Made by a program: the position numbers and the translations under genes. A DNA stretch of 64,000 bases. Origin: Gloeopeniophorella convolvens (lineage: Eukaryota; Basidiomycota; Agaricomycetes; Russulales). The stretch lies in the NCBI GenBank assembly GCA_022496205.1, contig WTXD01000031.1, positions 62,001-126,000 of the forward strand, written 5' to 3'. The notes under the pieces were generated by a model. The model saw nothing but the letters and a program-made list of their open reading frames with translations. It was not told the DNA's origin and made no database searches. This document shows, one piece after another, positions 18,595 to 48,433 of the stretch; position 1 is the first letter of the stretch; each line of letters starts with the position of its first letter.

Positions 18595-18937
18595 CCATGG
18601 TGCAGAAAGGTCTCATGCCACGTCAACTGTGCGTCTTCTCTGTTCTCTTTGTGCCCGGTTATTCACACTGATGGCCTGCGCGGGTGGAAGCCGTTATGTA
18701 CAAATACTCTTTGGGATGAACACCTCCTGTCTTGCACCCATAATCCGGCCCCGGCATTGTCAACGATCAATGACGGGGCGGGGGCGCCAGATGGAGTCAG
18801 CTTTCGTATACCAAGCCGGAGCCGGCGTCGATCATGTCGCACCTCCCCAGTCATCGTGACCCCTATGCAAACCCTTATGAGGCTCTAGAGGCCTGTAGTA
18901 GCAGGACAGGATGGGTATATAAGGACAGACACTTGGG
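18595..18937. other. Spacer downstream of the Bud6-like gene
   Basis: Holds the 3' flank of the preceding gene up to the edge of duplication copy B. A 79-codon plus frame (18649-18888) has no recognisable motif. Confidence 0.4.
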
Positions 18938-20572
18938 AGGCCATGCTCTGAGCTCTCGAACTCAGTGATGTATAACAATTCCCCCAGTCCCTAACAGAGA
19001 TACATGCTTGCCATCGTCAGTGCAGTAAGAGACTCGGTCGCTAGTCTAGCGCAGCTGCTACTATACGACTGCTCAAGCTGACAGCCGCACAGAGGCAACC
19101 GCCTGATGTCGACAGGAGCGCAAGATCGGGAAAGGCCACTGCCCGAGCCGACTCTGGCCCCGACGCCGCCAGAGCCTCCCCAAGCTCGCCAGCATCTCCA
19201 CGGCTCGTGCGGCGGGTCTCCGCAAATGAGGGCAGTGCAGCGCAACGTCGTGCCGCTCCGCCGTCCGGATGGTGTCGATGACGAGCGCGTAAGTGAAGGG
19301 CAAGGAGAATGGAGGACGGAGAAAGGCGGTCCGCGCGCGTCGGGAGGTTCGCCGCCAGTGCCGGCCGGCTCTCGAGGCCGATGTCGAGGACAGTCTTCGT
19401 GTTGGGAGACTGGCCGTCGGACGTGAGAGCACGCGTCGGAAGCACGGCCGTGACGGAGAACCTTGAGTGTTTGAGAGGAACGTGGATCCGACAGACAGTA
19501 CCATGCGCTTGTGCCGCGCGCAGATCCTCTGGAAGAATCGGTTGATACGGGCTAACGGCTCGACAAGCTCCCAGGAACATCCAAGCCCTCATTCTCGCAG
19601 AGGATGAGTGGTTGAGGTAGGGGAGGTGGTCAAAGGTGTTCCTATCGCCTAGGACAAGGTCCCGCAGGTTCGGAAGGCGCACGACCGGGGTCTAGTCTGG
19701 AAGTGGGTGACTTCTGGGGCACATAGTCGGCGATGTGGATGCTCTCCAGCGCGATTTTGCCTTTGGGGAAGGCAACGAGGCGTTGATATCGCTTGAAGAA
19801 GACGCCGCTGAAGTAGTCACAACCAATGGCGACTGAAACGTGGGTGAGAGTATGCGCAGGGTGTGGAAGAGGCGCCCCTAGTCGACAATGCCGTCGAGGA
19901 GAGACGCGCCGCAAATTGGGGGAACCATTAGTGAGGGAACGGAGAAGTGGTGGCTGGGATGCGGTGTATCGATTGAGAGGGGTGTCCATGACCATGTCCA
20001 GGTGCTCCAACGAAGATGAAAGGAGATGACGGCGTTGGAGGAAATCCTGGAGTGTGAACGCTGCCACCGCGATAACGGACAACGGAGCCTAACGAAACGG
20101 CCTGTGAGCAATCGACGGCGAGGGACATGCCTCTGTGTATCTGGGAGCGATATGCAAGGCCTAGCCACTAACATGGACAGCCTCGGGATGTTTTCGAGGC
20201 CAACTATTCGGGGGTAAAGTACCGGGTTATCGCCCTCGAAGATCCGAATACGGAGGTGGGGACGTCTAGTGGGGGCCGGTGTGTTATGGACAGCGGTTCA
20301 CGGATCCTTGCAGACTCGGACGTAGCAGCAAAAGCACTTGGGGTGACCTGGGGAAGAAGTGGACACCCAAATTGGCTGTTGCGGCGACGTGTTTATGCGT
20401 TTAGGCACGGGGGCCTATTGAATGGTTCGAGGAAAGGTCTACCGGTCTCCATAGTAGCCAGTCGCCGCAAGTTCGAACCTCGACAAGGCCTGATAACGAC
20501 AGGTAGGCCGACGATGGACATGGCGGTCGAGAAGGAGAGGCACGCTGCTTAGTCATCCCTGCGCCCCGTTTG
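18938..20572 (-). pseudogene. Segmental duplication copy B carrying a decayed F-box/LRR gene
   Basis: Second copy of the 14812-16440 segment, in the same orientation about 4.1 kb further on. Minus-strand F-box/LRR pieces include SSLEHLDMVMDTPLNRYTAS, LRSLTNGSPNLRRV, LPNLRDLVLGDRNTFDHLPY and LDIGLESRPALAANLPTRAD, in different frames. Similarity to copy A continues to about 20572, immediately before the ATG of the Na+/H+ exchanger model, where GC content jumps. The duplicated block therefore abuts the exchanger gene. Confidence 0.78.
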
Positions 20573-23069
20573 ATGGCGCACAGCACGAGTCGCAGCCTCT
20601 GCTTCACCTCGACCCCGAGCCTCTACGCTGTCCTCACACCCTCGGCACCCCCTCGCCGTCCAGCGCCCATGTCAATACACCTAGGCTCGGCCGTCGTCGC
20701 AGCGGCCGCGGACCCGTCCGCGTCGCCGGCACCCATCCCCGAGGAAGAAGAGTTCTACTCGTCGTGGTCGCTCTTCCTCGTCTGCGCGCTGCTCATCCTC
20801 TCCCTCTGGACGTCGTACTACCTCCAGATCAAGCGCATACGCGCCGTGCACGAGACCGTCGTGTCCATCGGGGCGGGCATGGTCGTGGGCTTCATCGTGC
20901 GCTTGGCGCCGGGACATTTGATTAGGGAGATGCTGGTGAGTCTTGTAGTGCTTTCGGCGGCGCGCGTGGCTGGGCGGACGGGGGTGCGGGGTGCGGTGGT
21001 GCGGTGGTGGGCTTGGGGATGGGCGGACGGGGGCAGAGGGCGGGGGGCGCAGAGGCCGCCTTGAAGCCACGTCGCGTCACGAGCGAGCGCGGGCGCGGGC
21101 GCTGACCCGCTCTCCCTGGCAGACGTTCAAACACACGCTCTTCTTCAACCTCCTCCTTCCACCCATCATCCTCAACTCGGGGTACGAGCTCAAGCAGGTG
21201 CGCGCGCGCGTGCGCATGTCTGCCCCGGACGACTGACCGCAGGGCCCCGCAGGAAAACTTCTTCCGCAACTTTGGCTCGATCCTGACGTTTGCGTTCCTC
21301 GGGACCTTCATCTCGGCCGTCGGCGTCGGGTGCGTCTGCCTGCTGCGGCGACGACGCGTGTGCGTGCGCTTACCACGCATAGGACAGGGTGCTCGTGTAC
21401 ATCTGGTCGCTCCTCGGGATCGAGTCGCTCGACCTGACGCTCCTCGAGTGCCTCACGTTCGGCACGACGCTCTCCGCGACGGACCCGGTGACCATCCTCG
21501 CGATCTTCAACCAGTACAAGGTCGACCCGAAGCTGTACACCGTCATCTTTGGCGAGAGCCTGCTGAACGATGCGGTCAGCATCGTCATGTACGAGTGCGT
21601 GTGATGACCATGTGTTTGGCGGTTGGGCGAGAGAGGCTGACTGACGGGCGCGCGCGCGCGCGCACAGGACGCTGTCCCAGTTCCACGGGACGGAGATCTA
21701 CCTGTCGTCGCTCTTCCACGGGACGGGCATCTTCCTGCTCTCGTTCAGCGTGTCGATGGCGCTCGGCGTCGCGTTTGGGCTCGCGATGTCGCTCGTGCTG
21801 AAGCACTCGTCGCTCGCGCAGTACCCGGCGATCGAGTCGTGCCTCGTCGCGCTCTCCGCATACACGTGCTACTTTTTCTCGAACGGCATCTCCATGTCCG
21901 GCATCGTCTCGCTGCTCTTCTGCGGCATCACGCTCAAGCACTACGCGTACCACACCATGTCGCGCCGCACGCAGCGCACGACGCGCTACATCTTCGGCAC
22001 GCTCGCGCAGCTCTCGGAGAACTTCATCTTCATCTACCTCGGGCTGTCCCTCTTCACGTCCCCGCCCGCCGGCGAGCGCGTCACGTCGTACGTCAAGCCG
22101 CTCTTCATCGCCGTCACGACCGTCGCGGTCGTCTTCACGCGCTACGCCGCCGTCTTCCCGCTCTCCGAGGCGATCAACTTTTTCCACCGCCACGCGCGCG
22201 GGCAGCGCGCCGAGGAGCTCCCGCACGCGTACCAGATGATGCTCTTCTGGGCCGGCCTGCGCGGCGCGGTCGGCGTCGCGCTCGCCGCGGGCTTCCACGG
22301 CCGCAACGCGCAGACGCTCCGCACGACCGTGCTCGTCGTCGTCGTGCTCACCGTCGTGCTCTTCGGCGGGACCACCGCGCGCATGCTCGAGGTGCTCGGC
22401 ATCCGCACCGGCGTCGAGGACGACGCCGCCGACAGCAGCGACGACGAGCCCGCGCCACAACCACAACCACCGCCACCGCCGCCACCGCCGACATCCGCGT
22501 CCACGCGCCGCTGGGCGCGCGCCGCGGCGCGCGTGGGCACGCACTACGCGCCGAGCAGCTACAACCACCAGGCGCAGGCCGCCGCCGCCGCCACCTCCAC
22601 CACGGGCGGCGGCGCCGGCCCCGCGCGCGCGTTCTCGCCCGCGGCGTCCGTGTTTTCCGCGGCGTCGAGCGACTCGTACGACTACGACTCGGACGGCGGC
22701 GAGGTGCTCCCGCTCGCCGCGCCGGCGCACGCGCACGCGCCACCTAGTCCGGGCGCGGGCGCAGGCGCAGAGGACGGGCGGTGGTTCCAGGCGCTCGACG
22801 AGCGCTACCTGCTCCCGCTCTTCTCGAACGCGACGGCGAGCCGGACGTTCCACGCGCGGCGCGCGCGGCGGGCCGGCGCGGGCGCGGGTGCGGGGGCGGG
22901 CGGGGAGATGATGCCGGTCGACGCGGGCGACGAGAGCGAGGGCGACGAGGGTGGTGGGAGTGTGCTGGGCACGCCTGGCGCGGGGTCGCGCGCGAGCCGT
23001 GCGGAGCGCGGGCTGCCGAGCCCGAGCCTGCGGCGGGAGAGCGACCCCGCGCTGAGCCAGTCGCCGTAG
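20573..23069 (+). CDS. Na+/H+ exchanger (CPA1/NHE, Nhx1-like)
   Basis: Five exons: 20573-20935, 21123-21197, 21253-21329, 21388-21594 and 21668-23069. The introns are GT..AG and give 707 codons plus a stop. The membrane domain starts with [20 protein letters not shown] and has about a dozen hydrophobic segments. Diagnostic family sequences are [19 protein letters not shown], the ion-binding region [12 protein letters not shown] followed by [16 protein letters not shown] (the Asn-Asp pair), and the late helix [14 protein letters not shown] with its conserved Arg. The protein exchanges monovalent cations for protons; by similarity to yeast Nhx1 it probably acts in endosomal/vacuolar or Golgi pH control. 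The final 220 residues are a cytosolic, Pro/Ser/Ala-rich, acidic-patched tail. The Met at 20669 may be the true start, since the first 32 codons lie at the edge of a duplicated block and are not conserved-looking. Codon use is extremely GC-rich at third positions. Confidence 0.9.
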
Positions 23070-29363: not shown

Positions 29364-29819
29364 CGCTGTCGTATGCGTCTCTGGTTTATATATGTACATG
29401 TTTGTGTTTGTGTTTTGTCCCGCCGTGCGATGGTCCCTGGTCGAGTGCGCGCGGGCGTGGGCGCGATGGTTGTAGCAAATACACCTCTTAGCGGTTCTTG
29501 TCCGTGATCGGCATGCATGGACGGCCCCAGGAAGCTATTGATTGGGTCGGTGTGGACGACAGCGCCCTGGGCGTCTACAGAATACACTTTGACACGCGCG
29601 GCATTGAACCCCCCATCCGCCGCGCCGTGCCCATTCAGGCCACACATAATACTCTATCAACGGAACCAACAAAGAGAAGACGAAGGTGTGAAGATCGAAG
29701 ACGCCCTGCATCCTGCCCGGGCGCACGTCAGTATATTCAAAGGGATAGAAGAGCGTTGCATGGGATGGCTCACGAAGGTGCAGGGCGGTGTAGGTATATA
29801 TATACATACCGCGGGCTGT
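29231..29819. other. Intergenic, bHLH 3' flank to pheromone gene 1
   Basis: Holds the CT repeat at 29329-29361 and no gene. From about 29590 onward short stretches (for example GACACGCGCGGCATT) recur at 31635, suggesting the pheromone genes duplicated with flanking DNA. Confidence 0.5.
29329..29361. repeat. (CT)n microsatellite
   Basis: About sixteen CT units in the 3' flank of the bHLH gene. Confidence 0.9.
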
Positions 29820-29936
29820 TCACGCGACGACGCACGAGGTGGTGGAGCCGCCTCCGCCGCTCTCAGCGTCGATGGGCGTCGAGGACGGCTGCGACTCGGT
29901 GGGGGTGGCGGAGAAGAGGTAGGAGAAGGCGTCCAT
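29820..29936 (-). CDS. Lipopeptide mating-pheromone precursor 1 (CaaX CVVA)
   Basis: A 38-residue single-exon frame that starts MDAFSYLFSA, has a Ser/Thr/Pro-rich middle (STPIDAES), and ends GGGGSTTSCVVA. Basidiomycete B-locus pheromone precursors have this plan: a short pro-region starting Met-Asp, an acid-containing cleavage site, then a Gly/Ser-rich mature peptide with a C-terminal Cys-aliphatic-aliphatic-Ala box. The box is farnesylated, trimmed and carboxymethylated. The mature peptide would be secreted and sensed by a STE3-type receptor of a compatible partner. Two similar precursors lie downstream. A TATATAAA box lies about 67 bases upstream of the ATG. The reading frame and CaaX are direct observations; the processing site and receptor are inferred from the family. 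Confidence 0.9.
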   Translation of the reverse strand: MDAFSYLFSATPTESQPSSTPIDAESGGGGSTTSCVVA

Positions 29937-31797
29937 GGTGGCGGTTGGTGCGGGAGATGCGAGTGACTCTCGAGCTGGAGGCATGGAAAGAACAGCGCAG
30001 GGTTTATATACCGTGCGCCGGTGTTTGGGAGGAGGAGGAGAAGCGTGTACGGTCGTGCCGGCGAGACACCCAAATCCATGGCCTGTCTCAAGCGGCCGCC
30101 GACGATGCGCCTTGTGCAATCTCCCCGCCGGCTCGCCAAATATTGAGCCAGCACATGCACATGCAAAGCCGTCGGGCACTCAGGCCGTGACCCACATGTA
30201 CACGCGCGCAGCAGCACCTTACAGGCGGAAGCACTCGGGGGCTGTCAGTGCAGAGGCAGGACAGGACAGGACAAGGCCCCCGGCGAGACATACATGTTCG
30301 GTCGCCACCGTGCGGCAGAGATTTGGGACGGCGTCCGGGCTCGCTGCGCATTTTCTGCTTTCTTTTTTGTTTTCTGTCGAGGGGGTGAGACGCGCCATCA
30401 CTGGTGGCGCTGAGACGGTACGGCGGGGATCCGGAGTTGGGCGGAGGAGACGAGGCGACTCAGGCACCGTCGGGCCAGATAAGTAGCCTGAGTGTTCGGA
30501 AGGGGGTGCATAAGCCGACCTGAGGTCTGTACGACGAAAGAACAAAAAGCAAGACAGCTCAGAGGGACTAGTAGTGCCGCGGCACGCCGGCGGTCGGCCT
30601 TGCTGGCTGCGGCGCCGCGTTAGGTAGGCTCGCTTGCGCCGCAGGTCCGTCCTGAGGCCGTTCGAACTGAAGCTGCGATGATGGTGCACTGGCAAGAACT
30701 AGTACTCCAATGCAGACGAACGCGGCTGCGGAGTGCTGTTTGCGGCAGTCGCCGGATCACTTTCTTCTGTTTACACGTGCCATGCGATATCAACTTCAAG
30801 TTTGTCACCAGCTACCTGCCGCACGGTTTCCGAGTCGACCATAGTCATCCTGAGCAGCGAGGACCGTGCCGCCTGGCTCCCGCCCAGGCCAAAAGGCCAA
30901 GTCTTTGAAAATCCAGGGCTATGAGCAAAAGGCCCCGAACCGCCGGCTTTGATGCACATCCGACACCGCCACCGTGAGCGTCAAGTTCTGCAGTCGTCAT
31001 GCGTCGAACTTGATGTGCGAGTTCATCAGATGTTCGAGAAGACGGACGAGAAAACCATAATTTGATCGGTTCCGACACCGTTGTGGCGATCTATTGATGA
31101 CTTGTCTAAATACAATCTGACACGCCGCATAGCATCCACATATGCATGTTAAAGTCCACTGTTGCGCTGTACGCGCTCTTAGTCCGTATATGCCCTTTAG
31201 CAAGATCGACAAGACAGAAGGGCAAGGGCAGAGGTCCCTCCATCCTGTTTTCAGAACCAGAAACAGTCAACACGCGAGGGCAAGATGTTACACTGAATGG
31301 CCTACAGGCCAATGCAAAGTGAGATTCGCAATCCTATAGCGCGGGAACATCAAGATTAGGCCTAGGATCAGAACATGTTCTCGTTTTCATGTTGGATCTG
31401 GTTCAACGTGCCAGGATCTCTGTATATGATGCTGTTCAATCATTAGAGTTCGCTGAAGAGGCGTATCTTGAGTATGTGCATGTAGCAATACACCTGCGAT
31501 GGTCACCGGCGGCGGCAGGCGTCCTTGAGGTTTACGCGCACCAACATCAGACGATATGAACAGTCTAGAGTGCTATTGGCCTACACGGAGTGCATGACAG
31601 AACACACGACGGCTATGGCCGCCCAAGTACAGTCGACACGCGCGGCATTCAGTCTCATCTACCACCACGTCGTGTCGATTCATTATACAGATACCCGTGC
31701 CCGAACCTTGCACAATGATGGATGAGTACATGCAACGAGTAACTGGCGTATGGTGGCTCACTTATATACAGGGTGAAGTACGCCGAGTATGGTCGCT
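29937..31797. other. Pheromone 1-2 spacer
   Basis: Contains the pheromone 1 promoter (30001-30117) and then about 1.6 kb with no convincing gene on either strand. Specifically, no frame with a series of hydrophobic segments like a STE3 receptor is visible. Confidence 0.5.
30001..30117 (-). promoter_or_regulatory. Promoter of pheromone gene 1
   Basis: On the minus strand a TATATAAA box (30003-30010) precedes the ATG by about 67 bases. Further upstream 30047-30117 matches 32032-32104 of pheromone gene 2: shared blocks are GTACGGT.GTGCCG, GCGAGACACCCA, TGTCTCA, CGGCC.CCGA and GCCTTGTG. The last reads CACAAGGC on the coding strand, reminiscent of the ACAAAG core bound by HMG-box mating regulators. 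That assignment is speculative. Confidence 0.6.
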
Positions 31798-31917
31798 TCA
31801 CACGATGACGCAGGAGGTGGTGGAACCTTTTCCGCTACTCTCGGAGTCGATGGGCGTCGACGGCTGAGATTCGGCGATGGAGATGGTGGTGGTGGAGAGG
31901 TAGGAGAAGATGTCCAT
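31798..31917 (-). CDS. Lipopeptide mating-pheromone precursor 2 (CaaX CVIV)
   Basis: A 39-residue single-exon frame beginning MDIFSYLSTTT, with SQPSTPIDSES in the middle and ending GKGSTTSCVIV. It aligns with precursor 1 along its length. The final residue is Val, where basidiomycete pheromones usually have Ala (or Ser/Met), so prenylation efficiency or type could differ, or the gene may be drifting. TATATAAG lies about 75 bases upstream. Same strand as precursors 1 and 3. Confidence 0.85.
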   Translation of the reverse strand: MDIFSYLSTTTISIAESQPSTPIDSESSGKGSTTSCVIV

Positions 31918-33007
31918 GGTAGTGATTATGATGTGTGCGAGAGAGATGTGAATGGATCTCGTGTTGAAGCCCCGGGCGGGCAAGGCAGAGCTTATATACG
32001 GCACACGAGACGTGTGTCGGGGGAAAAGTTTGTACGGTTGTGCCGTGCAGCGAGGCGAGACACCCATGAGTTGTCTCATTCGGCCCCCGAAGATATGCCT
32101 TGTGTTGCCCTGGGTCGTGCGTGCGCTTGATGCCGCAGCATTGAGCCAGCTCAATAAGGCGGATGGACACTCGGTCCGTGACCTATACGAGCGCAGTACC
32201 GAGGCGGCAGCACTCGAAGTTGGTGCCATGGCGATCAGTCAAAACAAGGCCAGCGACGAGATATGGGCATGTGTTAGCACTTCGATTCTCGACACACGAT
32301 TTTGCGGCAATTTTTAGACATGGATGGCGTCCAAAATCGTCACGTACTTTGTTCTCCCTTCGGTATCCCTCGGGAGCTGAGACACACTCCAATGGCGCGG
32401 AGGCGGCTCAGCAGAAGGTCAAACAAGCGAAACGAGGCAATTCAGCCGGACCAGACCGTCCGGATGAGAGCGTGTGCCGCTCAAGCGCAGCCTCAGCTAC
32501 AGAGAAAGGGGAAAAGAGAGAGCAAGAGTGTGCTAGCACAGTGCCGTTGAAGCTGCGGCGACGACGTGCTGTCGAGAGCTACTGATGAAGTTGGGGTCGA
32601 GGTTGCCTCCTAAAGCTGACCTTACATAGTAACGGAAGACCGTCGTTCCGTGTCGGGGTGGCCATTGCGCAGCCACGTGAGCACGCGGCAAGTTCGCGCC
32701 GCCGCGCGACTCGTCAGTACTACAGTACTACCGTGACCGCGACCGCGACGGTGGGTAGCGCAACCACGATTTGGGCGACAGTCTACCACTAGACCCTCGA
32801 CTCCCCTCCAAACTTTACCTCACTGCTTGTGATCTGCCTTAAAGCATTCCTTGATCCCAATCACCAGCTCCAACTTCTCTCCGCCGACTGCTGCGCGTTG
32901 CTGCGTCGAAGACGTTTCGTGGGCGGAGTCTTCAGCAATTTACTCACCGACGACGCCGGGCATCTTGAGAGCCGATCAAATCTTCTTATCAACAGCTGTC
33001 CCCAGCC
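31918..33007. other. Pheromone 2 promoter side and F-box B upstream region
   Basis: Holds the pheromone 2 promoter (31990-32104). From about 32840 onward the sequence belongs to a segment duplicated in inverted orientation at 46.2-51.0 kb. No other gene is seen. Confidence 0.5.
31990..32104 (-). promoter_or_regulatory. Promoter of pheromone gene 2
   Basis: TATATAAG (31991-31999, minus strand) plus an upstream block (32032-32104) conserved with pheromone gene 1, including GCGAGACACCCA, TGTCTCA and GCCTTGTG in the same order and near-identical spacing. Retention after divergence of the surrounding DNA suggests shared regulation. Confidence 0.6.
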
Positions 33008-34868
33008 ATGCCTACCCACTCTGAGAACAAGGGTGCTGTAAAGTTGGAAAGGTGTGAACTGTGCGAACGTGTTTGATCATTGGAGTCTTCCAGATAACTT
33101 ATGGCCGGTCCTTGGGTCATTTTTTTCCGATAGTGATGACAATCAGCACATTGCATGTGAAAATGTGCTCTCCGTAGAATTCATAGAAAGGAATATCGAA
33201 GCGGCCATTTTCAACCTTGTCAACCTCCGCTACCAGCGCAACTCCCTACTTCCTGTCTCAAAGATGGCACCGGAGACGCTCACGCTCGTATTTCACTTCC
33301 TTTCTCGGGAGTGGCGTCCCGGCTACAAAGATCATCGCCTTGGCTGGATCGTTGCCTCGCACGTATGTCGACATTGGCGTCAAATCGCCCTCAGTGCTCC
33401 GACACTATGGGTGGTGTCTATCTTTGGACTGGGCTCACATTGGTTGGAAGAGGGCATTACGAGGGCAAGAGCGGCGTCACTCGATATTGACCCGCCTGAA
33501 GGCGTAATCCCGACTTCGAACGATTGGGTGACCATCATCAACAACCTTCACCGTTGCAGCTCGGTCCGACTTGCAGACCTCCCGGTGGATTGTTCAGACC
33601 ATGTCCGTCGACTTCTCGCAACTCCGGCTCCTGTTCTTCGGAATCTCTTCCTGGCGACTGCCAAGGACCGCACCATGGATCTGCACAATCCGCCTGTTGA
33701 CCTCATGATGTTCGACGGAAGCGCACCGAACTTACGCAGAATCACCTTACATCATACCCACTTCCCGTGGGCCCTCTTTCCATGCAATTCACTATCATCT
33801 TTGGTGATAAACTGGAGCGAATGCCAGACATCCGATGTATACTCGGTGTCAGAATGGGACAACCTAATGGCCATACTATCCGCTAGCCGATCTCTACGAG
33901 TTCTGGATCTCTCTCATTGTCTTCCTACCCCTTCATATCACCAGTCACCCCAGTATCGGACGGTTCATTTACCGGACCTTGCCGATTTGCGTCTCAATGG
34001 ACCCGGTATGAGCTTCGTCGTGCGCATCATAAATGCTCTCGTCATCCCTCCGTCAACCAAGCTTTCCCTGAATTGCTCCTACGATCAGCCAGGGAACACT
34101 GTCCCATGCATAGTCATCCCCGTAGTTGCCGCACATTTTGGGAGCCCTGGATCAAGCATCCTCCGAAGCTTATGTATCTTTGAATATCCAGACGACCCAG
34201 TATCGATGGGCATAGCCGCGCGGAGTGACGTTGCTTCAATGAGCAGTTTCTTTGAAGACGGCAACTTCTTTGACATAGACAACGATGTCGTGGTCCACGA
34301 TTCATCAATTTCTTTCTCCGGGTCGGTCAACAGCGAATCGGGATCAGACGATATACCATTCGATTACCAAGACGTTCTCCGATGCGTATTCTCAATGTTC
34401 CCTCTCGCACAGCTTGGGTACCTTTACTTGGACGTCCCACCTACTACTACTCTTAAACCTGTGGACTGGTCAACGTACCTTCGCCATTGCAGTAATGTTT
34501 GCGAAGTTGACATCGTTGGGAGCAACGCGGGTTCGTTTTTCACAGCGTTGGTTTCTCAGATAAACCCTTCATCACTGGACAACCGCTACGCGAAGTCGAC
34601 AGCGCTTAACGGTCATATTCCCCCCCTCCTTCCGCAGCTTGCAACCCTTTTCATCCGCAAGGTCGATTTCACTGTCGGGGGCCGGAGCTCTGGTTCGCCA
34701 TATAACAATCTACTAACTGTGCTGGAACAACGTATACGGTTGGGGACCCCTCTCGCAAATGTGGGGGTTTGGGTTTGCAAATTTGGCTCAAAGAGAGAAA
34801 AGCGCATATCCAAGATCCGGGAAGTTTTTCCTCATTTTGAAGAAGACGGCGAAGAGCCGTGTGAGTAG
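33008..34868 (+). CDS. F-box/LRR-like protein B
   Basis: Exon 1 33008-33051 (MPTHSENKGAVKLE plus two bases) and exon 2 33134-34868 are joined by an 82-nt phase-2 intron, giving 592 residues. I placed exon 1 because the long frame has no ATG before the F-box and the 44-nt exon length is preserved in the inverted duplicate at 50839-50882. F-box region: SKMAPETLTLVFHFLSREW and SHVCRHWRQIALSAPTLW (about residues 55-120). The rest is leucine-rich: HCLPTPSYHQ, YRTVHLPDLADLRLNG and INALVIPPSTKLSL. It groups with the intact gene at 44002-45768 and the pseudogene at 46774-48433 by these segments. Presumed substrate adaptor of an SCF ubiquitin ligase; target unknown. Confidence 0.83.
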
Positions 34869-36014
34869 GGGGATGAAGCCTATCTGAGACGTGGCATCCT
34901 CGTCCTATTGACTTCAGATTAGATCTAATACCCACTCATAATCGTTGACTCCTGTATCAGACTCACGCCGACTACGCTCTCTCACTGTAGATTTACTACG
35001 CGGAGGCTATTCGGCACGATACTCAGCTACTGAACCTGATACGGAGTACATAATAGACATAAGAACCGTTGTTGCTGGCACCTCTGGCTGATGCTCCTTT
35101 GATCGGGCTGTGGTGGCTCGGGGGGCCTTCCGACGACTGGCGGCGCCGTCCCACTGGGTTGATTGCCTGTATACCCAACCTGCACCAGCACTTCACCTCA
35201 TACGAGCGCTGCTCCGGAATTGGCGTAGTCTCCTGATGTCCATGCTAGCAAGAAAACGCCGAGTTAGTCGAGGCCTGTCACGCTAAAAGGCGCTCCGCGC
35301 GACGTTCACCGACACGGGGCGAGAGCGCGCGGTGGCGCACTTTGTGCGGTTCGAGCGCAGGTACGCCATGGACTACCTCAGCGCGTTCACGGACGACCCA
35401 GACACGTCCATCGGCGTGCGGTGCGTGGCGCGCGGTTCCTGCGCTCAATTCTGCGTGTAGTAGAGCTGGTGGGGCGGTACTGGTGTGGTGTGCAGGTACG
35501 TGGCGCGGCGCTGGGCGCCGCGTCGTCGGGCGCTTCGACTCGCCCGAGCTGCGCGCCAAGATCATTGTCCCATCGCTCGAGGGCCCCGCGTCGGCCGGTG
35601 CGGCTGCGGTCACTTTTATCTTCACACGATCCCGTGCGCAACGTTTTCTTCTCTCTGCGGCGGCACTGGAGAGACTCGGAAACATTTGCTCCTGTCATCC
35701 CATTTTCCCAGGCCAATGTATATGAAGATTGAGCTATACACACCCCTGTCGAGTATCCGTGCACGCCGGAGTGGTCGCTCAGCCAGTGCCAGAACACCAC
35801 CACTGCTGAGCTTGTATTGAAAAGAGACAATGCCTAGATATCTGGACTTACGTAAGTCGAAAACGAGAGGCGTACACTCCCGTTCCATGAGTCATCAAAG
35901 TAGCGTTGTAAAAGCACCATAAACCAAGATACCACATACAGTGATCGGACGTTGACTACTAGAAAGCGCACCGCAGTCTTGGCACAGCCTCGATGGCGAT
36001 GAGGGAGGCCACGA
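34869..36014. other. F-box B to P450 spacer
   Basis: Contains the 3' flank of F-box B (also duplicated near 46.7 kb) and the relic described at 35290-35690. Nothing else is recognised. Confidence 0.45.
35290..35690 (+). pseudogene. Unidentified gene relic, copy 1
   Basis: Reads AHFVRFERRYAMDYLSAF, TDDPDTSIG, then in another frame GRFDSPELRAKIIVPSLEGP. The same peptide pieces occur at 46230-46470 on the minus strand (GRFNPELCAKVIFPLLEGP). Two copies with shared frame breaks point to a decayed gene or domain carried with the segmental duplication. I do not recognise the family. Confidence 0.5.
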
Positions 36015-38366
36015 TCACGCAAGAGACATGATGATAGGGAGGCTTGGATGCAATACCTTGGTCTCGGATCCCTTCAAAGACGGGCTGACGATGTTACCAA
36101 ATCTCCAGGTGATCTCTTGCTTTGAAGGCTCGAATTTGAATGTCGGGATGAGTTGGGACAATACAACCTCTGAAAAGAGCATAATGATCAGAGCGGCTAC
36201 CCGTTTTATCACACGGCTACGGGACGCACTCATTTCCAGCTGCGAGAACTTGAAACCGCTGCAAGAATCTAGGTCAGTCTCGCATAGCACAAGCTCTCTG
36301 CAATTATGCACGTACATGCACGATCGTCCACCGCCGATGAACGTCATCCTGGCGCATTCTCGTCAATGAGAAGACGAGGGGAGAGGAGCAGAAAATTGCT
36401 GTCGGTGACTCACGTGTTGGAATAGACACCTTGGATTCTGGCCTCTGCGACGCTCTCGGGCAGCGGAGAGAGCCAACGTTCGGGCTTCCATTCTGCGGCA
36501 TCAGGACCCCACACGAGCGGGTCGCGGTTCAGATTAGAGATTTGTATGTACACTGTCGTGTCATCAGGAATGAAGAGCTCGTTGATCTCGCGGCCCTCGG
36601 TGTCGTGGATAGGCGTTGACAACGGAAGTACGGCAGCACCACGTGTTCTATCGGGCCGTTAGCCATGGGCCAGAATACCTTGCGCAGGACTCACGTTCTC
36701 ATCACTCCAGGGACTGGGGCGTAACTGCGTATTCGTCAAGAGAGGTAGTGTAGAGGTGAGAAAGCTTGACGTACAGACGAAGGGTCTCGCGGCAAACAGC
36801 ATCCAAATAGGGCAAAGAGACAAGCTGGTCGTACGGAAGCTCTGCGTTTCCTTCACATGCTTCCTTCAACTCGCTCCTGAGCTTGTCTTGAACTTCTGGA
36901 TGAAGGGCCAGGAGATGCAAGATGCGAGAGAGAGCGCCAGAGGTCGAGTCTGTAGCTGCTAAGAGGAGGATGCTAAGAGGAGATACCCAGGTCCGTCAGT
37001 GCTTCGCCAATCTCGAGCTCTTATCACGCACGTCATCTGAGCGACAATCTCTTCCTCGCTGAGACGGTCCTTGTCAGACGCTTCTGAGTTAGCCCGGACT
37101 TAGACACAGCACGTCAGGCGGTCAGTACTAGGAAGCCGGGATTGAGGGCGTACTGAGGAGACTTATGATGTCTTTTCCCTCGCCAACTTGCTTGACAGTG
37201 GCGTCGTCGCCTTCTTCTAAAAGCCTCTTCTTCGCTTCATATACCTTGCTCGCGTTGGTGGTCATCATTCCTGCGACATCCATGGCGTGGTTCAACCTCT
37301 CCCACGGTAGTATCCTCCCTGCAATCTTCAGGAACCAGGCCGGGAATACCCTGTAAAAATAAGGGAAAATGTTCCGAGGCACGACAAGCGAAGACATAGT
37401 AGGACTGCACGCAGATCAGGTCGAGCCAGGCTCAAATAATTGGGATGCTCACATCCATTCCTTCACAGCTTTGCAGAATTCGTCGTTCCTACCGTCGAGA
37501 GTGCCAAAGTTGTACCCGAGACCAGCTTGCCCAATCAGCTCGAGCGCGAGGCGACCCATCCACTCGACGATGTCGACCTCTTGTGGGCCATCTTCTACCA
37601 TCGGCTTCAGAATCCCGTGAAGCTATCGTGATGTGAGCTGCATGTCATAGCGATGAGACAGTATGGAATTACCTGGCGTGTGACATTATGGAAGGTGGGA
37701 ATCATGTGTCGCATATGGTTGATGTGGAAGACGGGATTGAGTAACTTGCGCTGCCTGCGGTGATGGGCGCCTACGAGGTACGTATACGTCGGGAAGTGCT
37801 CGGCCGAGTAGTACAGGCCATTACGAACCTATAGTGGAGAACAAGTTCGGCCCGGATGCCTGCATATTCGCACTACTTGAATTCAGCGGCGGGTTCTGTG
37901 GTACTGGTACCAGACATACTTGAGGAAAGCGTCTGTTTCTTCGAAACATACTGGTCTCTGACAAAGATGTTGCTGCAAGCTTTGGGATCCGATATCACGA
38001 GTTGGATGTCCTAGAATCGCAGCGTGGATGTGAAATTCAACTCAATGGTGAGCACCGAGCAGAGGCCTACCCCGAAGAGTCCATACACGCGTGCCACCCT
38101 TCCGTAAGTTCGAGACAGCCCATTGTGCCAGGAGCTGGCCAGGGGATTGAACATTTGACGCATGTTCCCTTCATCCCCGGTCAGCACGATGTGGACAACA
38201 CCCAACTTGGATGCGAAAGCTTACCCCAGACAAAGGATGGGCTGGGTGGCCCAGGCACCTTCCAAAGGCATCGCTGCCTCAAACGATGCCTCAGAAGAAC
38301 AAACAAGATCGCCCCAGCCAGAGCTAAGGCAGTATACGTTGCGAGCTTGAACAGGGTTACGAGCAT
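36015..38366 (-). CDS. Cytochrome P450 monooxygenase (one frameshift)
   Basis: Minus strand, about a dozen short exons. The ATG is at 38364-38366: a hydrophobic anchor (LATYTALALAGAILFVLL) and the proline hinge WKVPGPPSPSF mark an ER-membrane P450. Downstream are HHRRQRKLLNPVFHINHMR (C-helix), VDIVEWMGRLALELIGQAGL, an I-helix oxygen motif LLLAATDSTSGALSR, the K-helix ETLR, WKPERWL, and the heme loop MTFIGGGRSC|IGFKFSQLEM. The last is split by the intron 36259-36315 and holds the cysteine ligand. The end WRFGNIVSPSLKGS is typical of basidiomycete families. Near 37945 one base is missing in a T run: DQYV must shift frame to reach FEETDAFLK, so the printed frame is interrupted. Substrate unknown. 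It lies between pheromone genes 2 and 3. Confidence 0.82.
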
Positions 38367-40318
38367 GATCAGCACGTCTCTACTGTTAGGTGCGTCGACG
38401 CAGGCTTAAATAGCATGGGGACAACCAGTTGACAAGAGTCGAGCGGCTCATCTTGTTACCTTGACGTGCCCTCGATGACTTTCATGCCTCCGAATGATAG
38501 TCACGGTGATAGGTGCGGCGTCTTCGAGAATAGAAGCATCGCTATAGTTGGTGTCGAAGTGAGTACATGGCTATCAGCTGAACCAAGTCGTGAGTATAAC
38601 CACATATATAGGACTGTCCGAGGGAGCTCAGCTGCGATGACCCTGGCTGCACGCCGGAAGGCACGAGCCCTGTTAACATCAGTGGCATACGCTATCATCC
38701 ATCCTGAGGTCATGTCCAACCTGTTGGGAGTGAAAGAGGTCGATGTTGTTCTCACGGGAAGTTCAGAACATATTACAATATCAAGGCGGGTCCATCTCTA
38801 CACGTGAGCCCATGGCATATGCTGAGATTGAAAGTCCCGAACCATGCATGGCCCATGCGTGCACGGAGAGACGACAGATTTTGACGTCGTCCAAAGAAGC
38901 TGGCTATAGGGGCACTGAGACCATGTACGCGAAACTCATCGACTGTTCGGGAAGGCGACACCGCTCCCGGCCTCCGCGGGGCCATTTGGAAGTCCAACCT
39001 GGTACTGCTTTCTGTAGGAGTCGAATAGAACGATGAGGTCAACCCTAGTAATGGGTGTGACTTACCCCGGGCTCCGAGATACGACATCGGTGCGGTGGGA
39101 AGTCGGTCGCTGACACGTTCCGGGCTGGTTCGCATGTCAGCAGGGCTTTGTCACATTCTGGGGTGACGGTGTACCGGAGTGTCGACGGAGTCTGGCGGCG
39201 CTATGCCAGGACTCATGGGCATGGCAGTTCGAAACAGCGCGTTGGACCACATATACCCAGCCAGCCCCGACTGAGCGACATGCGCAGGGAGTTTGCGTTC
39301 GTGTCATAAATATACGCAACCCTCTTGTGGTGGTTCGAATTCGGAGGATCCAATGCCATCTCGATTCTCTAGAAGTGCATACATCGGGAGCCTGGAACAA
39401 ACGGAGTCCTCAGCTATGCTATATATCGTTGCGAGAACGAACCATTCTCCGTGAGGCAAACGTCAGAATTTCCACGTGAAAGATGAAGCAGCGTACTCAC
39501 GTCGATAACCTGATCATCAAGAACCATCATCTTGCATAGACCATGGGATCGACAGTATGTAATTCCTAAGGACGCGAAAAAAAATCCACATCAGAACATT
39601 CCGCACCGCTCTGAAGACAAAGGCGCAAGCGAGAGAGGTATTTGTCGTACCTCACCAAACACTGAAGTCGTCGCCAGCGCTCGCAATTGGACCGCTTGTG
39701 CACTGAGCACTCGGACAAGACCTGGCTTCGTTCCAGCGGTCAAGGTTGATGTGGTGCTAGAATCAGCAGGGAGAATATGCCCAGCGGCATAGACAGCGTT
39801 GGTTAATAATGCGGAACGCGATCCAGACAGACAGCGAAGCTAAGTTGTGGGATTTCAGATAATTACATGGTGTGGGCACACAGACGAGCTGGCACGGCGT
39901 CCACGACTTGAACTTTGACAAGCGCCCATTGGTTACATAATATACATCACAGGCACCCACGCTTGCAACCAGATTCAGATTTACTACCCCCGGCACAGCG
40001 ATGTGTGGGAACGCCTGCGCAGTGGCGACTTTTTGGTCTTCGGTTACCACCGGTACCACGAAAGTCAATTTAGACAACAGCACCTGAAATCGAAGTAGTT
40101 CTAGCATCCTCCGGAACACGCGCCAATCATTCTCATTCCCCCGACCACACCATATCCATTCGTGATAGAGATCCATAGCGAAACCAACGAAAAAAGGAGG
40201 AAGTGCGAACATTGAGGGTATACGCATCCTACTCTGGCAGAAGTCAGTACATTCAGGGGAAAGGAGAAGTATGGATAGCGTACGGAGATGCGATACGAGG
40301 TATGCTGGTGCGGGCCGT
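38367..40318. other. P450 upstream region; no supported gene
   Basis: Only short, unconvincing frames occur. A 276-codon minus frame (39763-40593) runs antiphase through the pheromone 3 region; its second half contains protein-like stretches but no motif I recognise. No receptor-like gene is visible. Confidence 0.45.
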
Positions 40319-40438
40319 TCAGGCGACGATGCAGGAAGTGCTGCTGCCGCCTCCGTGGCTCTCGGATTCGATGGGGGTGGATGACTGGGGCTCAGCCGTT
40401 GTAGTGGAGGTAAAGAAGAGGTAAGAGAAAGCGTCCAT
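40319..40438 (-). CDS. Lipopeptide mating-pheromone precursor 3 (CaaX CIVA)
   Basis: A 39-residue single-exon frame that starts MDAFSYLFFTS, carries QSSTPIESES, and ends HGGGSSTSCIVA. It has the same plan as precursors 1 and 2 and a canonical Ala-ended farnesylation box. GTATAAAGG lies about 66 bases upstream of the ATG, matching the TATA spacing of the other two. It is 8.4 kb from precursor 2, with an F-box gene and a P450 between. The mature peptide boundaries cannot be fixed from sequence; an acidic-Ser site near ESES is one possibility by analogy. Confidence 0.9.
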   Translation of the reverse strand: MDAFSYLFFTSTTTAEPQSSTPIESESHGGGSSTSCIVA

Positions 40439-41827: not shown

Positions 41828-43666
41828 ATGCCTTCTGAGGCTGTCTCGGGAGCGAGGTGCGTCCTTCCGTGATCATCCAAAGGACTTTCTGCTCACTTTG
41901 CCAAAAGATGGTTAACAAGGACCTCGCGCTTTCTTTCACGCCTTAGCTTGATTGAGCATCCCTCGAGGAAACCGGATGCTCAAAACGAGGGGCATCAACC
42001 CAGTCCACCCCAATTAGAAATAGGCAACCCGCAGCCGAAACTCCAGTCTCCGGCCTCCCAGCTACCGGCGGACATCCTCATTGTCATATTCGAGATCTAC
42101 AGAGACGAATTCTTCCACGCTTTCAGAAATCATATGCATCCGGAATACCCTCCATCCACTGGCTCATGGCGGCCTCGTATACTGAACGGCAGACCTGCAC
42201 ACCTGGAATGGATCACGTGTTCGCACGTCTGTCGGCGCTGGAGACATGTCATGTTGGAAGCACCCTCCCTTTGGCGGCGCATTCCGGCTGACTTCGGCCC
42301 CACATGGTTGATGGAGTCATTCTCTCGTTCCCAACGCATCCCACGACTGCATCTGTTTGGCAATTTGGGCACCGCGTACGACCCTTGGTTGCACAAGGAC
42401 GCATCTCTTCCCACCGGAACGCCACAAGTGGCATCTGTTTCTCTCACTGCGCTGACAGAACATGCACTCATGACGATTTTCGAACACTTTGGCGCCCTTT
42501 CCTCCGACATGGAGCTTCTCGAGCTGGTCATGCAACCCCCCGTGGACAGGTATCCTGTACGGAATCCCATGCCGCTCCGCGGTTTGATCGACGGGTCGCC
42601 CAATGTGCGCCACGTTTCGCTGCACAATCTTCTTGTCACATGGATGCCTCTTTCACACCCCGCACGATCCCTGACGTCCCTTTCGGTGGTCGTCAACCAT
42701 GACCAGTTCTTCACCACGTCGCCGTTGGCTGACATACAACATGTCGTCCGCTTTCTCGAGAACACCCCCGCGCTAGAGGTCCTCAGTCTGATCTTTTGCA
42801 CTTGCATTCTCCAGGAGACCACCAATTCGTTGCCCAAGACAGTAAATCTCCCGTATCTGCGGGAACTTGTGTTGGAAGACAGGTGTGGCGCGACGGTTTA
42901 CTTTCTTCAACACGTCGACTATCCTGCTACGGCGAAGCTACAAGCTCAATTCGGGTTATCCTGGCTGCGGCATAGGACGGTTGGGCCCTTGCTGCGCCAT
43001 GTGTTCCGCTTCTTCCACGAGGACCCGCGGGCTTCCGAGACGTCTGGCCAGCTTTCCTGGCTATACACCAGCCCGACCCACGCCCAGTTGTCGATCAAAG
43101 CCACGCTACCCAAGCTGCCCACGGACTCTTCTTCGCATCTCCCGGATGCCGACGCTGCCTTGGATATCTGCCTCGAAGCACGATGGAGGCCGTTCTCGGC
43201 CTTCCCAGCGTTATGGGATATCCTCCCGGCATCCTTCACGCGGACTCTTGTGCTCGATATCGTACCCGCGAACATATGGCACGACATCGCGGCTCACTGC
43301 CCCCAGGTCACGGAGATCCACTACGACGGACACGGCATTGTAAGCAAGCTCGGCGAGGTGTTCGCATCGGCGCCGGAGTCTGGCCACGGAGTGCCGTTCC
43401 CCGAGCTTGAGCTGCTGCGGCTATTCAAGCTTGTGCTCACTGATCCGCAGCAGATCCTCTCATTGCGGGCTGCTCTGGGTACCCGCAAGCGCCTCGGGTA
43501 CCCGTTGGGCAGATTGGTGCTGGAGCAGTGTGATATCGGCCGTGCGTGGGATGTGATGCACGAGGTGGTTGAGGTAGTTGAGGTGGTGGGCGGTGGGCCC
43601 AGAGCGTATGAGGACCAGAGGATTCTAAACGTAGATTTTTATTCCGTGGCGCCTCTTCGCTTGTGA
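41828..43666 (+). CDS. F-box/LRR-like protein C
   Basis: Exon 1 41828-41856 (MPSEAVSGA plus two bases), phase-2 intron of 90 nt (GTGCGT..CTTAG), exon 2 41947-43666: 582 residues. F-box region SQLPADILIVIFEIYRDEF and SHVCRRWRHVMLEAPSLWRR (about residues 45-120). Leucine-rich repeats follow, with RGLIDGSPNVRHVSLHNLLV, FLENTPALEVLSLIFC and LPYLRELVLED. The C-terminus includes a Val/Glu-rich helix. It is the closest intact relative of the two decayed copies at 14.8-16.4 and 18.9-20.6 kb. Presumed SCF adaptor, target unknown. Confidence 0.82.
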
Positions 43667-44001: not shown

Positions 44002-45768
44002 CTATTCGTCGTACGATACACTGGCCAAACTTTCTTTGTCCCATCTGAAGGTGGAGAAGTTGCTCCCAAGACCCGATAACAACGGAACCCAGTGGGAGGC
44101 AAATTTACACTTGGTGACCTCGAGCGTCTTCCGTGGAAACTTCGGTAAGGCCAACTCTTTCACTACGTCGAGGATGACGTGCGCCGTCGTCTTGTCGCGT
44201 TGTGGGGCCGGAAGCGGAATTGTGAGATCGACTCGGGTGATAGAAAGCACGGTGAGACGGGGAAACAGTCGGGGGAGCGGTGCAGAAACTGGATTGCCGG
44301 AAGGAAGGGCCGAGGTAGCAACTACTGCAGCATTGTTTGCAGCTGGCTGAGCCAGGCTAGGGTGCGTCAGGGCACGTAGGAACCCCACGAGGTGTCCACT
44401 TGCCCGAACCGTGGTGACATTATGGCAGCGACGAAGACAAGACACCCACTCCTGCGGGTCCAACATGTTGCCATTATCGACGTCGAGGCTTCGTAGGTCT
44501 TCCAGTGGGAGTAGAGGAAACAGCAAGTGGAACACGCTCCGAAGCTCCCCAGCGAACCCTTTTCCTGAGGAGTCGATACGAAGATGGAGTTCGGGTTGTC
44601 GGGACTGTTCGAAAGTGGGGTGAACACTATGGGCCGTAAGTTGAAACCACGGGAACGAAGGGCCAGAAACCGCGGGGAATTTGAGACTCATGCTCCGCAA
44701 AGGCTCCGAGTCGTTCTCGTGAAGACGCGCGAATATTAGAGGAATGATGAGACAAGAATCTTTATCTCCTGTAATCGTAGAGATGCAATGCATCCGGAGC
44801 TTCGTCGAAAGAGGAATAACCAGCGCAGACATGACGTGAAACACATCTGTGCTCGTACCAGAGAGGCTGAGATACCTCAGTCCCGGAAGATGGATGCAAC
44901 GATACTGGGGGAGCCATTGGTGGGATGCAGCGGGAATGCAGTGGTCGAGGAGAAGACTTTCGAGGTTCGGATTCCCGGATAGAACGTCAAATAGACCTTC
45001 TAGCGTGGTACCCAAGGGATGTCGCTTGCTTTGTGGTGGCAGCTGGACTTCCAGATGGGATAGCGAGCAACTCGGAAACGACTCCCACGGGATGGCGACA
45101 CGCGAGAGGGTAACAGAGCGCAACCTCGATGCTTGGTTCTCGAAAAGAGTGGTGTCGATAGCTATGTCGAAGTCCATGGCGGCCTCTCCGTCGGGGTTGC
45201 GGGATGTAATCGAGAGGTTCTCCAGCGCAGGAGCTGCTGTCGAAAGGATTTGATTGACACATTGTCGAGACTCCGCTGGGACTTCGAGGCCCAATGAACG
45301 GACGTGCGACTGATGACTTGGGAGTACTGCCAGATTGTCCAGCCGGGCCACGGATTGAGAGATCGTAATATCCAGGGGGGTCATTCTTGCTCGCGAAAAC
45401 ATCTCTGCTACCCACGTAGAACCCAGTGCGAAGCCAATATTGCCCCACAATGCAGAATCCTCCAGTGCCACCCGCCGCCATTTTCGGCATACATGCGTCA
45501 CTGCAATCCAGCCGAGAGAATTCGTCGGGGAGCCAGGGGGTTCGATGGAAGCATGGAAGTGAAATAGGTGCAACAGTATCTCCGAGGATAATCTATTGAT
45601 CGTAAGGAAGTTGTTACGGCGAGACTTCAAGGACGCGAGACTTGAAGCCATCGCCATGATCTCATCTTCAATGAGCATTCGAGAATGACTTGCATCTTGA
45701 ACACCGTTAAGTTCAGGCTTGGTGTCGGTCTCCGTGGTTGCGGAGGCATATGGTGTTACCAGAGCCAT
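44002..45768 (-). CDS. F-box/LRR-like protein, subfamily of B
   Basis: A single uninterrupted frame of 588 residues with ATG at 45766-45768. It opens MALVTPYASATTETDTK, then has EDEIMAMASSLASLKSRRNN, F-box INRLSSEILLHLFHFHASI and THVCRKWRRVALEDSALW. LRR-like segments IHLPGLRYLSLSG and MSALVIPLSTKLRM match gene B at the same relative place, so both belong to one subfamily. A proline-rich gap (LPSGNPVSAPLPRLFPRLTV) precedes the last repeats. No intron is needed, unlike the neighbours. Substrate unknown. Confidence 0.83.
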   Translation of the reverse strand: MALVTPYASATTETDTKPELNGVQDASHSRMLIEDEIMAMASSLASLKSRRNNFLTINRLSSEILLHLFHFHASIEPPGSPTNSLGWIAVTHVCRKWRRVALEDSALWGNIGFALGSTWVAEMFSRARMTPLDITISQSVARLDNLAVLPSHQSHVRSLGLEVPAESRQCVNQILSTAAPALENLSITSRNPDGEAAMDFDIAIDTTLFENQASRLRSVTLSRVAIPWESFPSCSLSHLEVQLPPQSKRHPLGTTLEGLFDVLSGNPNLESLLLDHCIPAASHQWLPQYRCIHLPGLRYLSLSGTSTDVFHVMSALVIPLSTKLRMHCISTITGDKDSCLIIPLIFARLHENDSEPLRSMSLKFPAVSGPSFPWFQLTAHSVHPTFEQSRQPELHLRIDSSGKGFAGELRSVFHLLFPLLPLEDLRSLDVDNGNMLDPQEWVSCLRRCHNVTTVRASGHLVGFLRALTHPSLAQPAANNAAVVATSALPSGNPVSAPLPRLFPRLTVLSITRVDLTIPLPAPQRDKTTAHVILDVVKELALPKFPRKTLEVTKCKFASHWVPLLSGLGSNFSTFRWDKESLASVSYDE

Positions 45769-46229
45769 GTTTCCGTGTGCATTTGTCTCGTCGCTGCGTC
45801 GAGAAAGATGACTAGGTCTATGACGCTAGCGGGGTCTGAAACGATTGCACTCACCTCTCTCCTTTTACCTTAGCACTACCATAAGCCTCTCCCATCCCGT
45901 CCTGGCGTGCGCCTCGACAAAGTAATGGCTGAATCAGCAGCAGGGCGAAGGTGGGGGTTAATTTCATTGTTATCACCGTTCCGTCGCGCAAGTGACGCGT
46001 GTCTTGCTAAGCGTGCACGTGATCATGAGACTCCTCAGCCACAAGCGCGAAGTTCTCACATTCACATGATCCACGTTTTCCGGGACGGTCGCTACTGAGT
46101 CCAAATATCTTAGAGGCCTCCGAGTGAAGGTCCGGCAAACCGCTGCAACTGCATTTGCGCAGATGACCCCTACTTCCGATGAAGAAAAGGATAACCATGA
46201 GTATAGAATGCACGTGAATCGCTTCGATG
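45769..46229. other. Spacer upstream of the minus-strand F-box gene
   Basis: Promoter side of the preceding gene; no gene recognised. Confidence 0.4.
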
Positions 46230-46470: not shown

Positions 46471-46773
46471 CACGCCGACGAACATGTCTATTCCATCCGT
46501 GAACACGCTGGGTAGTCTATGGCGGCGAACTTCCCGCCGCGCAGGCCCACCGCGCGCCCTCGCCACGTATTAGTGAACGTCGTGCGTGGCGTCTTTTCGC
46601 GTGACACGCCCCGACTATCTTGGCAGTTCCTCGCTAGCGCGCTTATCAGGAGACAGTGCCAATTCTATGTCAGCGCTCGTATGCGGTAAAGTGCTGGTAG
46701 GGGGTATTGGATCTACTAGCTGAAGTCAATATGTACAGGGGTGCTACGTCTCTGATAGGCTTCATCCCCCTAT

Positions 46774-48433
46774 TCACAGGTCTCCACCGTCTTCTTGAAA
46801 CCGAGGGAAGACTTCCCGGATCTTGGATATGCGCTTTTCTCTCTCCGAGCCGAATTTGCAACCCCAAACACCCACGCTTGCGAGAGGGGTCCCCAACCGT
46901 ACGCGTTGTTCCAGCACAGCTAGGAAATTATCATATAACGAACCATAGATCCGGCACTCGACAGTGAAATCGACCTTGCGGATGGAAAGGGTTGCAAGCT
47001 GAGGAAGGAGGGGGAGCCTGTGGCCGTTAAGCGCCGTCGACTTGGCACAGCAGCGATCCAGTGGTGAAGGCTTCTTCTGAGACGCCAACGCTAAGAAAAA
47101 TGAATCCGAGTTGCTCCCCACGATGTCAACTTCACGGACGTTGCTGCAATAACGAAGGTATTCTGACCAGTCCATAGGTCTGAGAGCAGTATAAGCTGGA
47201 ACATCCAAGTAAGGTACCTAAGCTGTGTGAGAGGGAACATTGAGAATACGAATCGGAGAAGGTCTTGGCGATCGGTGGCTTGCCGCCTGATCCCCACTCC
47301 TTGTCGGCCGACCCGGAGAAAGAGATTGATGCATCGTGGACCGTGACATCATCCTCTACCTCAAAGAACCTGTCGTTGTCAAAGAAGCTGTTCATTGAAG
47401 CGACATCACTTCGCGCAGCTATGCCCATCGATCCCGGTTCGTCCGTATGTTCAAGGATACATAAACTTTGGAGGATGTTTGATCCAGGGCTCCCAAAGTG
47501 TGCAGCAACCGCGGGGATGACCATGCATGAACCAGGATTCTCTGGTTGATCGGAGCAATACAGGGTAAGCCTGCTTGACGGAGGGATGACGAGAGCATTC
47601 ATGATGTGTACGACAAAGCTCATGCCGGGTCCATTGAGACGCAAATCAGTAAGGTTCGGTAAATGAACCGCCCGATACTGAGGTGGCTGGTTATGTGAGG
47701 GGGTGGGGAAACGACAGAAGAGATCCAGAGTCCGCAGAGATCGGCTAGCGGATAGTAGGGCCATGAGATTGTCCCATTCTAACGCCAAGGATCGATGTAT
47801 CACCAAAGACGATAGTGAATTGCACGGCAAGACAGCCCAGGGGAAATTGATATAGTGAAAGGTGATTCCGCGTAAATTTGGTGCGCTTCCGTTGATCATC
47901 ACGAAGTCCGCAGACCGAACGTGCAGATGCATGTTGCGGTCGTAGGCAGTCGCCAGGAAGAGGTTCTGAAGCAGAGGAGCCGGGGTTGAGAGAAGCTGAC
48001 GGACATGGTTCGAACAATCCACCGGGAGGTCTGCAAGTCAGACCGAGCTGCAGCGGTGAAGGTTGTTGATGATGATCACCCAATCATCCAAAGTCGGGGT
48101 CACACCTCTGGGCGGGTCAATATTGAGTGGCAGCCCTCTTGCCCTCGTAATGCCCTCTTCCAACCAGCGTGAGCCCAGTCCAAAAATAGAGTCTGCCCAT
48201 AGTGTTGGGGCACTGAGGGCAATTTGACGCCAACGTCGACATATATGTGAGACGGCAAGCCAACCAAGGTGATTACGCTTGTAGCCGGGGCGCCACTCTC
48301 TCTTGAGGAAGTGAAATACAAGCGTGAGCGTCTCTGGGGCCACCTTTGAGACAAGAGGTAGGGAGTTGCGCCGGGAATGGGGGTTGACGAGGTTGGAAGT
48401 GGCTGCTTCAATACTTTTCTCTACGGGCGCTAC
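46774..48433 (-). pseudogene. F-box B paralogue, main exon, frameshifted and transposon-interrupted
   Basis: Minus strand. From 48433 inwards it reads EKSIEAATSNLVNPHSRRNS, KVAPETLTLVFHFLKREW and SHICRRWRQIALSAPTLW. It then shifts frame near 48040 to DCSNHVRQLLSTPAPLLQNL and runs to SISFSGSADKEWGSGG. Further shifts near 47270 and 47215 lead to FSMFPLTQLRYL and then to DWSEYLRYCSNVREVDIVGS, ending EVFPRFQEDGGDL at 46774. The start of the gene lies beyond a 2.29-kb insertion, at 50726-50882. Identity with gene B (33008-34868) is high throughout, so decay is recent. Confidence 0.85.

Follow-up and report, generated by a model that had tools for sequence, protein, structure and literature searches.

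Does a cluster of small genes resembling pheromone precursors tell us where the mating-type locus of a fungus lies? The question is raised by a 64-kb stretch of the genome of Gloeopeniophorella convolvens (contig WTXD01000031.1, hereafter C235; positions 62001-126000, 'the window'), in which an initial annotation recognised three intronless CaaX frames, ascribed them to the basidiomycete B mating type and took the area for a pheromone/receptor locus or its edge. The assembly (GCA_022496205.1) comprises 36.68 Mb in 404 contigs, and C235 holds 337,600 bases of it. We conclude, with a probability of roughly 0.82, that the three genes encode precursors of farnesylated lipopeptides of a dispersed, 'non-mating-type pheromone-like' class, whose likeliest role would be that of a self signal, perhaps perceived through non-mating STE3-like receptors. 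CaaX pheromone frames alone do not locate a mating-type locus, and a tempting misplacement is corrected here.

The three genes, numbered as copies 1 to 3 and given in window positions with promoter distances counted from the ATG, are as follows:

29820..29936, minus strand: pheromone-like precursor copy 1, 38 residues, CaaX box CVVA, TATAWA at -74
31798..31917, minus strand: pheromone-like precursor copy 2, 39 residues, CaaX box CVIV, TATAWA at -81
40319..40438, minus strand: pheromone-like precursor copy 3, 39 residues, CaaX box CIVA, TATAWA at -74

All share an MD(A/I)FSYL start, an STPI(D/E) middle and a Gly/Ser-rich end, and in position, length and reading they are as first described. A scan for frames with MD.F, then 15-70 residues and a CaaX end returned exactly these three in the window and none in 100 windows drawn from a first-order Markov model, and because of this difference they are not chance frames. 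A looser CaaX scan of the window added a fourth short frame (596-709), which ends in CITH, lacks the MD.F start and was set aside. With copy 1 as query, copies 2 and 3 are recovered at E 1.5e-7 and 7.1e-10, and comparison of the window with itself pairs two longer segments that are 68% alike over 316 bases (E 6.7e-22):

29819..30116, minus strand: coding part and promoter of copy 1
31797..32104, minus strand: coding part and promoter of copy 2, duplicate partner of the preceding segment

Together, these segments make copies 1 and 2 a tandem duplicate, promoter included.

Copies 1-3 occupy C235:91,820-102,438, with 91.8 kb of contig to their left and 235 kb to their right. Searched at E<=10, the whole assembly holds 25 matches to the STE3 receptor domain (PF02076; 23 at E<=0.001), with 24 on contig C350, one on C267 and none on C235. 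Assignment of the window to a pheromone/receptor locus is not supported by this count, and the absence of any STE3 gene within about 100 kb, which the initial annotation had named among its refuting results, holds up to the ends of the contig (only 91.8 kb away on one side). Six loci on C350 match most of the domain, with starts at about 615.3, 618.5, 729.1, 748.4, 751.9 and 754.8 kb and a span of 615-756 kb; even with C235 and C350 placed end to end, the nearest of these receptors would still be some 338 kb from the copies (91.8 + 245.9 kb). Receptor fragments lie near 643.7 and 650.0 kb (C350:643660-644017 and C350:650009-650131), and the C267 match (C267:1439-1561) is a 41-position fragment covering model positions 252-292 of 292, with the same score as that at 650.0 kb; these fragments are decayed receptor copies or a duplicate. 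Candidacy of C235 as the homeodomain (A) locus was also dropped: PF05920 has three matches at E<=0.001, on C365, C1 and C184, and none on C235 (PF00046 was not searched). With every STE3 and PF05920 match off C235, nothing in the window therefore points to either mating-type locus. A further 112.5 kb of C235 (1-62500 and 125501-175500) contains no CaaX frame with an MD.F start; C235:175501-337600 was covered by family and protein queries.

A pheromone candidate does stand beside the receptors. In 66 kb of C350 (612001-622000, 640001-656000 and 724001-764000), stretches that include every STE3 match there, we found nine distinct CaaX frames; eight lack the MD.F start and were set aside, and the ninth has it:

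C350:727838-727978: CaaX candidate, 46 residues, ends in CTIA, 1.1 kb from a receptor match

As a genome query this frame finds itself alone, with no similarity to the genes of the window. This is how a mating-type pheromone would be expected to look, and the frame presumably is one; others may lie in parts of C350 that were not read or lack the MD.F start.

What, then, are the genes of the window? A genome search with copy 1 found eight places (weakest E 0.0085), five of them outside the window:

C201:199340: family member
C350:930768: family member
C301:25908: family member
C39:12365: family member
C39:14137: family member

These eight paralogs, a lower bound as are all such genome-search counts, are spread over five contigs: C235 (three), C39 (two), C201, C301 and C350. 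When a C39 member and the C301 member served as queries, seven and five of the same eight were recovered; because nothing new was added, the set seems complete at this search sensitivity. Each of the eight is an open frame, 38-50 residues long, with an MD.F start and a CaaX end, and no match contains a stop. Seven of the 11 invariant alignment columns fall within the 11-residue end E-S-x-G-x-G-S-x-T-x-C, and the other four are M, D and F in the start motif and a single P; a stretch of the STP(I/V)(D/E) type stands ahead of the mature end in seven of the eight. Over the last 14 codons the ratio of non-synonymous to synonymous differences (pN/pS) is 0.55 when summed over 28 pairs, which are not independent, and suggests a modest constraint on these codons. 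Paralogs whose ends are alike and which sit on five contigs are poorly suited to serve as allelic specificities for mating, each paired with a receptor allele. It is improbable, therefore, that copies 1-3 are genuine pheromones of the B mating type and that the window belongs to, or borders on, a pheromone/receptor locus: their precursor anatomy is correct and one paralog (C350:930768) shares the receptor contig, but near-full receptor loci are found on C350 and none on C235, C350 has its own dissimilar candidate close to a receptor, and seven invariant residues in the ends of all eight paralogs are unlike mating specificities.

The Pfam model for this kind of gene (PF08015, 'Fungal mating-type pheromone', cut-off 22 bits) is passed by the C301 paralog alone, at 25.5 bits; copy 1 (18.5), copy 3 (15.0), the C201 member (15.0) and the two C39 members (17.5 and 14.6) fall below the cut-off, and a scan at E<=10 gave no match for copy 2 or C350:930768. 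The C350:727838-727978 candidate has no PF08015 match either, and because of this the model does not separate mating-type-like genes from the class of the window. Several observations weigh against assigning copies 1-3 to a dispersed non-mating-type class of pheromone precursors. Copies 1 and 3 fall short of the PF08015 cut-off, for copy 2 not even E<=10 yields a match, a genome-wide search with the model recovers only copy 1 (E 1.55), and the mating-type-like candidate on C350 resembles some paralogs in lacking a match. The ER, EH or DR dipeptide is found before the mature end in none of the eight, with EE in the C301 member only, and the GGGSGN(G/N)AYC end of Coprinopsis and Laccaria agrees with the likest end here in GGGS and the final C and in nothing else. 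One paralog, C350:930768, shares its contig with the receptors, at a distance of 175 kb from the closest receptor match; pN exceeds pS in two of the 28 pairs (last 14 codons); and the window copies cluster, weakly (51/84), in a tree of the eight paralogs and six metagenome relatives in which none of 11 inner branches is starred and nothing is firmly resolved.

Some of these points could equally be turned towards prenylated small proteins of other use, such as membrane-tethered peptides, which would not be secreted signals. A CaaX box by itself is no proof of secretion, and seven of the eight paralogs have D/E-x-E ahead of the mature end in place of a classical dipeptide cleavage site; but the MD.F start, the length and the Gly-rich end agree with pheromone precursors, as does the PF08015 match that one paralog has, and we give this explanation a slim chance. 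The initial reading of the genes as pheromone-type CaaX precursors is supported by one paralog above the PF08015 cut-off, by relatives in JGI metagenomes and by published precursors of the same anatomy.

The flanks of the genes carry signals of their own. TATAWA occurs between -90 and -60 at eight of the 565 ATGG sites of the window, copies 1-3 among them, and across the family it stands at -74 to -81 in four of eight paralogs (copies 1-3 and C201), which makes it their likely promoter; the C301 member has it at -144, and it was not found in the 400 bases examined for the other three. Copies 1 and 2 can also be read as longer in-frame open reading frames (ORFs). The additional in-frame ATGs of copy 2 lie upstream of its TATA box, and the single one of copy 1, at -48, lies downstream of it, which leaves room for a 54-residue form. 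Similarity beyond chance extends upstream in two of 28 paralog pairs (copies 1 and 2; the C39 pair) and downstream in another two (copies 1 and 3; copies 2 and 3). Description of the genes as intronless holds for the coding part and probably fails beyond it for copies 1 and 3, where splice signals point to introns in the 3' untranslated region (3' UTR):

29713..29809, minus strand: probable 3'-UTR intron of copy 1, GTATGT...CTGAC...GCAG, 97 bases, beginning 10 bases past the stop
40229..40283, minus strand: probable 3'-UTR intron of copy 3, GTACGC...CTGAC...CAG or TAG, 50 or 55 bases

The downstream regions of copies 1 and 3 align across branch point and acceptor, and no such signal was found downstream of the stop of copy 2. 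Strict signals (GTRNGY, CTRAY and YAG within 45-110 bases, starting no more than 70 bases from the stop) occur in four of eight paralogs (copies 1 and 3, C201 and one C39 copy), and by chance at 2.4% of random window places and in 2.7% of shuffled downstream stretches. The criterion was drawn up after the downstream sequence of copy 1 had been seen, and without that copy the strict count is 3/7. Relaxed signals occur in six of eight paralogs, against 7.5% of random window places and 12.9% of shuffled stretches, and also in the mating-type-like candidate on C350. That copies 1-3 are chance open frames or decayed copies can be dismissed: short frames are common here (100 ORFs of at least 30 residues overlap a 12.5-kb stretch), but no Markov window held even one MD.F CaaX frame, the TATA boxes stand at a near-fixed distance, copy 1 matches both other copies far beyond chance, and none of the eight matches holds a stop.

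By analogy with the pheromone family, the CaaX box of each precursor would be farnesylated, trimmed and carboxymethylated, and a cut at the acidic stretch (I-D/E-x-E-S) before the Gly/Ser-rich end would yield a peptide of about 10-12 residues, for example (E)SGGGGSTTS-C(farnesyl), which is presumably secreted. Alike ends made by dispersed genes tell mates apart poorly, and a self signal is therefore the likeliest role; its receptors may be STE3-like proteins that do not determine mating type. In Schizophyllum commune the receptors Brl3 and Brl4 have been proposed to serve hyphal self-sensing; the same paper calls them orphans and suggests self-pheromones as possible ligands (PMC8161036). It is our own inference that links them with alike Gly/Ser peptides, and we offer as a speculation, more apt to fail than to hold, that such lipopeptides are the missing 'self' ligands of orphan non-mating STE3-like receptors, serving a constitutive self-sensing (hyphal avoidance or growth direction) that runs parallel to mating and in which selection would keep the peptides uniform and many small gene copies would supply them. 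A uniform, dispersed set of peptides offers obvious candidate ligands to test for self-sensing of the Brl3/Brl4 type, and the eight paralogs with their likely ends, and likely promoters for four, provide such a set.

The surroundings of the three genes were surveyed by a Pfam scan of 30 open frames outside the pheromones, selected by length and place from those of the window. F-box-like matches were found in seven, three over the cut-off and four below:

10365-12113, 13676-14509, 41873-43663, 44005-45825, 52337-53335, 55074-56810 and 57349-59142: F-box-like frames (PF12937)

These frames are a local expansion around the pheromone-like genes. One other scanned frame, 61883-62716, matches DUF7729 (E 5.7e-12). 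An inverted duplicate of 1.7 kb, 82% alike (33194-34936 and 46699-48413), has its left arm between copies 2 and 3, and further alike pieces lie at 32796-33175/50726-51090 and 35184-35589/46304-46698; a direct duplicate of 1.7 kb is 78% alike (14788-16453 and 18923-20575). At 6370-6737 lies a long inverted repeat, perhaps a small transposable element, whose roughly 368 bases agree to 94% with their own reverse complement. Between 20001 and 28000 the GC content is 67-69%, whereas all other 4-kb steps have 53-62%, and both strands carry long frames that overlap; the Pfam scan took in five frames of this region and matched none of them.

Relatives of the family exist beyond this genome. A profile search of 5.8 billion proteins gave 192 candidates, of which six, JGI metagenome proteins of 39-48 residues, match at E<=0.1 (E 8.1e-6 to 0.033, three under 1e-3), and the peptides are to that extent conserved, contrary to the lack of conservation that the initial annotation named as a refuting result. 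They begin with MD(S/F)F, end in C-x-(V/I)-A and are Gly-rich with varied letters between; PSTP(I/N)D is present in all six and the sequence varies after it, and the stretch before the mature end is therefore better conserved than the end itself. A literature search for the peptide motifs, with most subscription journals outside its reach, found no paper, and the accessible part of PMC5100862 yielded nothing on scattered precursors.

Known systems offer parallels. Agaricus bisporus has Gly-rich, scattered pheromone precursors with 3'-UTR introns, at least three of its four precursor genes being expressed with the intron in that position (PMC8305134). The genes described here resemble them in length (44-54 residues there, 38-50 here), in an MD(S/A)F-type start, a Gly-rich end, the CaaX box and scattering over scaffolds; the intron is known there from transcripts and here from splice signals in part of the family. 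The same source holds that the scattered and unlinked positions of the genes speak against a mating-type function, states that it is unknown whether non-mating STE3-like receptors interact with pheromones, and cites the consensus GGGSGNGAYC for Coprinopsis cinerea and GGGSGNNAYC for Laccaria bicolor. Unlike that GGGSGN.AYC class, the family here ends in ES.G.GS.T.C, preceded in seven of eight paralogs by the STP(I/V)(D/E)-type stretch, and lacks a dipeptide of the ER/DR/EH type apart from the EE of the C301 copy. Pycnoporus cinnabarinus has seven precursors, of which four are alike and presumed non-mating-type (PMC4101180), and, compared by description only, it shares with our species a few very distinct precursors beside a similar group, an MDA/DF motif and the CaaX box. 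In Pleurotus tuoliensis two additional pheromone-like peptides lie off the matB scaffolds (PMC5755439), and in Pleurotus ostreatus mating and non-mating receptors have been told apart (PMC12387193). With the B mating-type pheromones of pheromone/receptor loci (PF08015) the window genes have precursor anatomy in common, one paralog passing the model; they differ in having no STE3 gene on their contig and ends that are alike, not divergent. By these comparisons, copies 1-3 appear to share the main features of the scattered non-mating-type class while differing from it in the exact end of the peptide.

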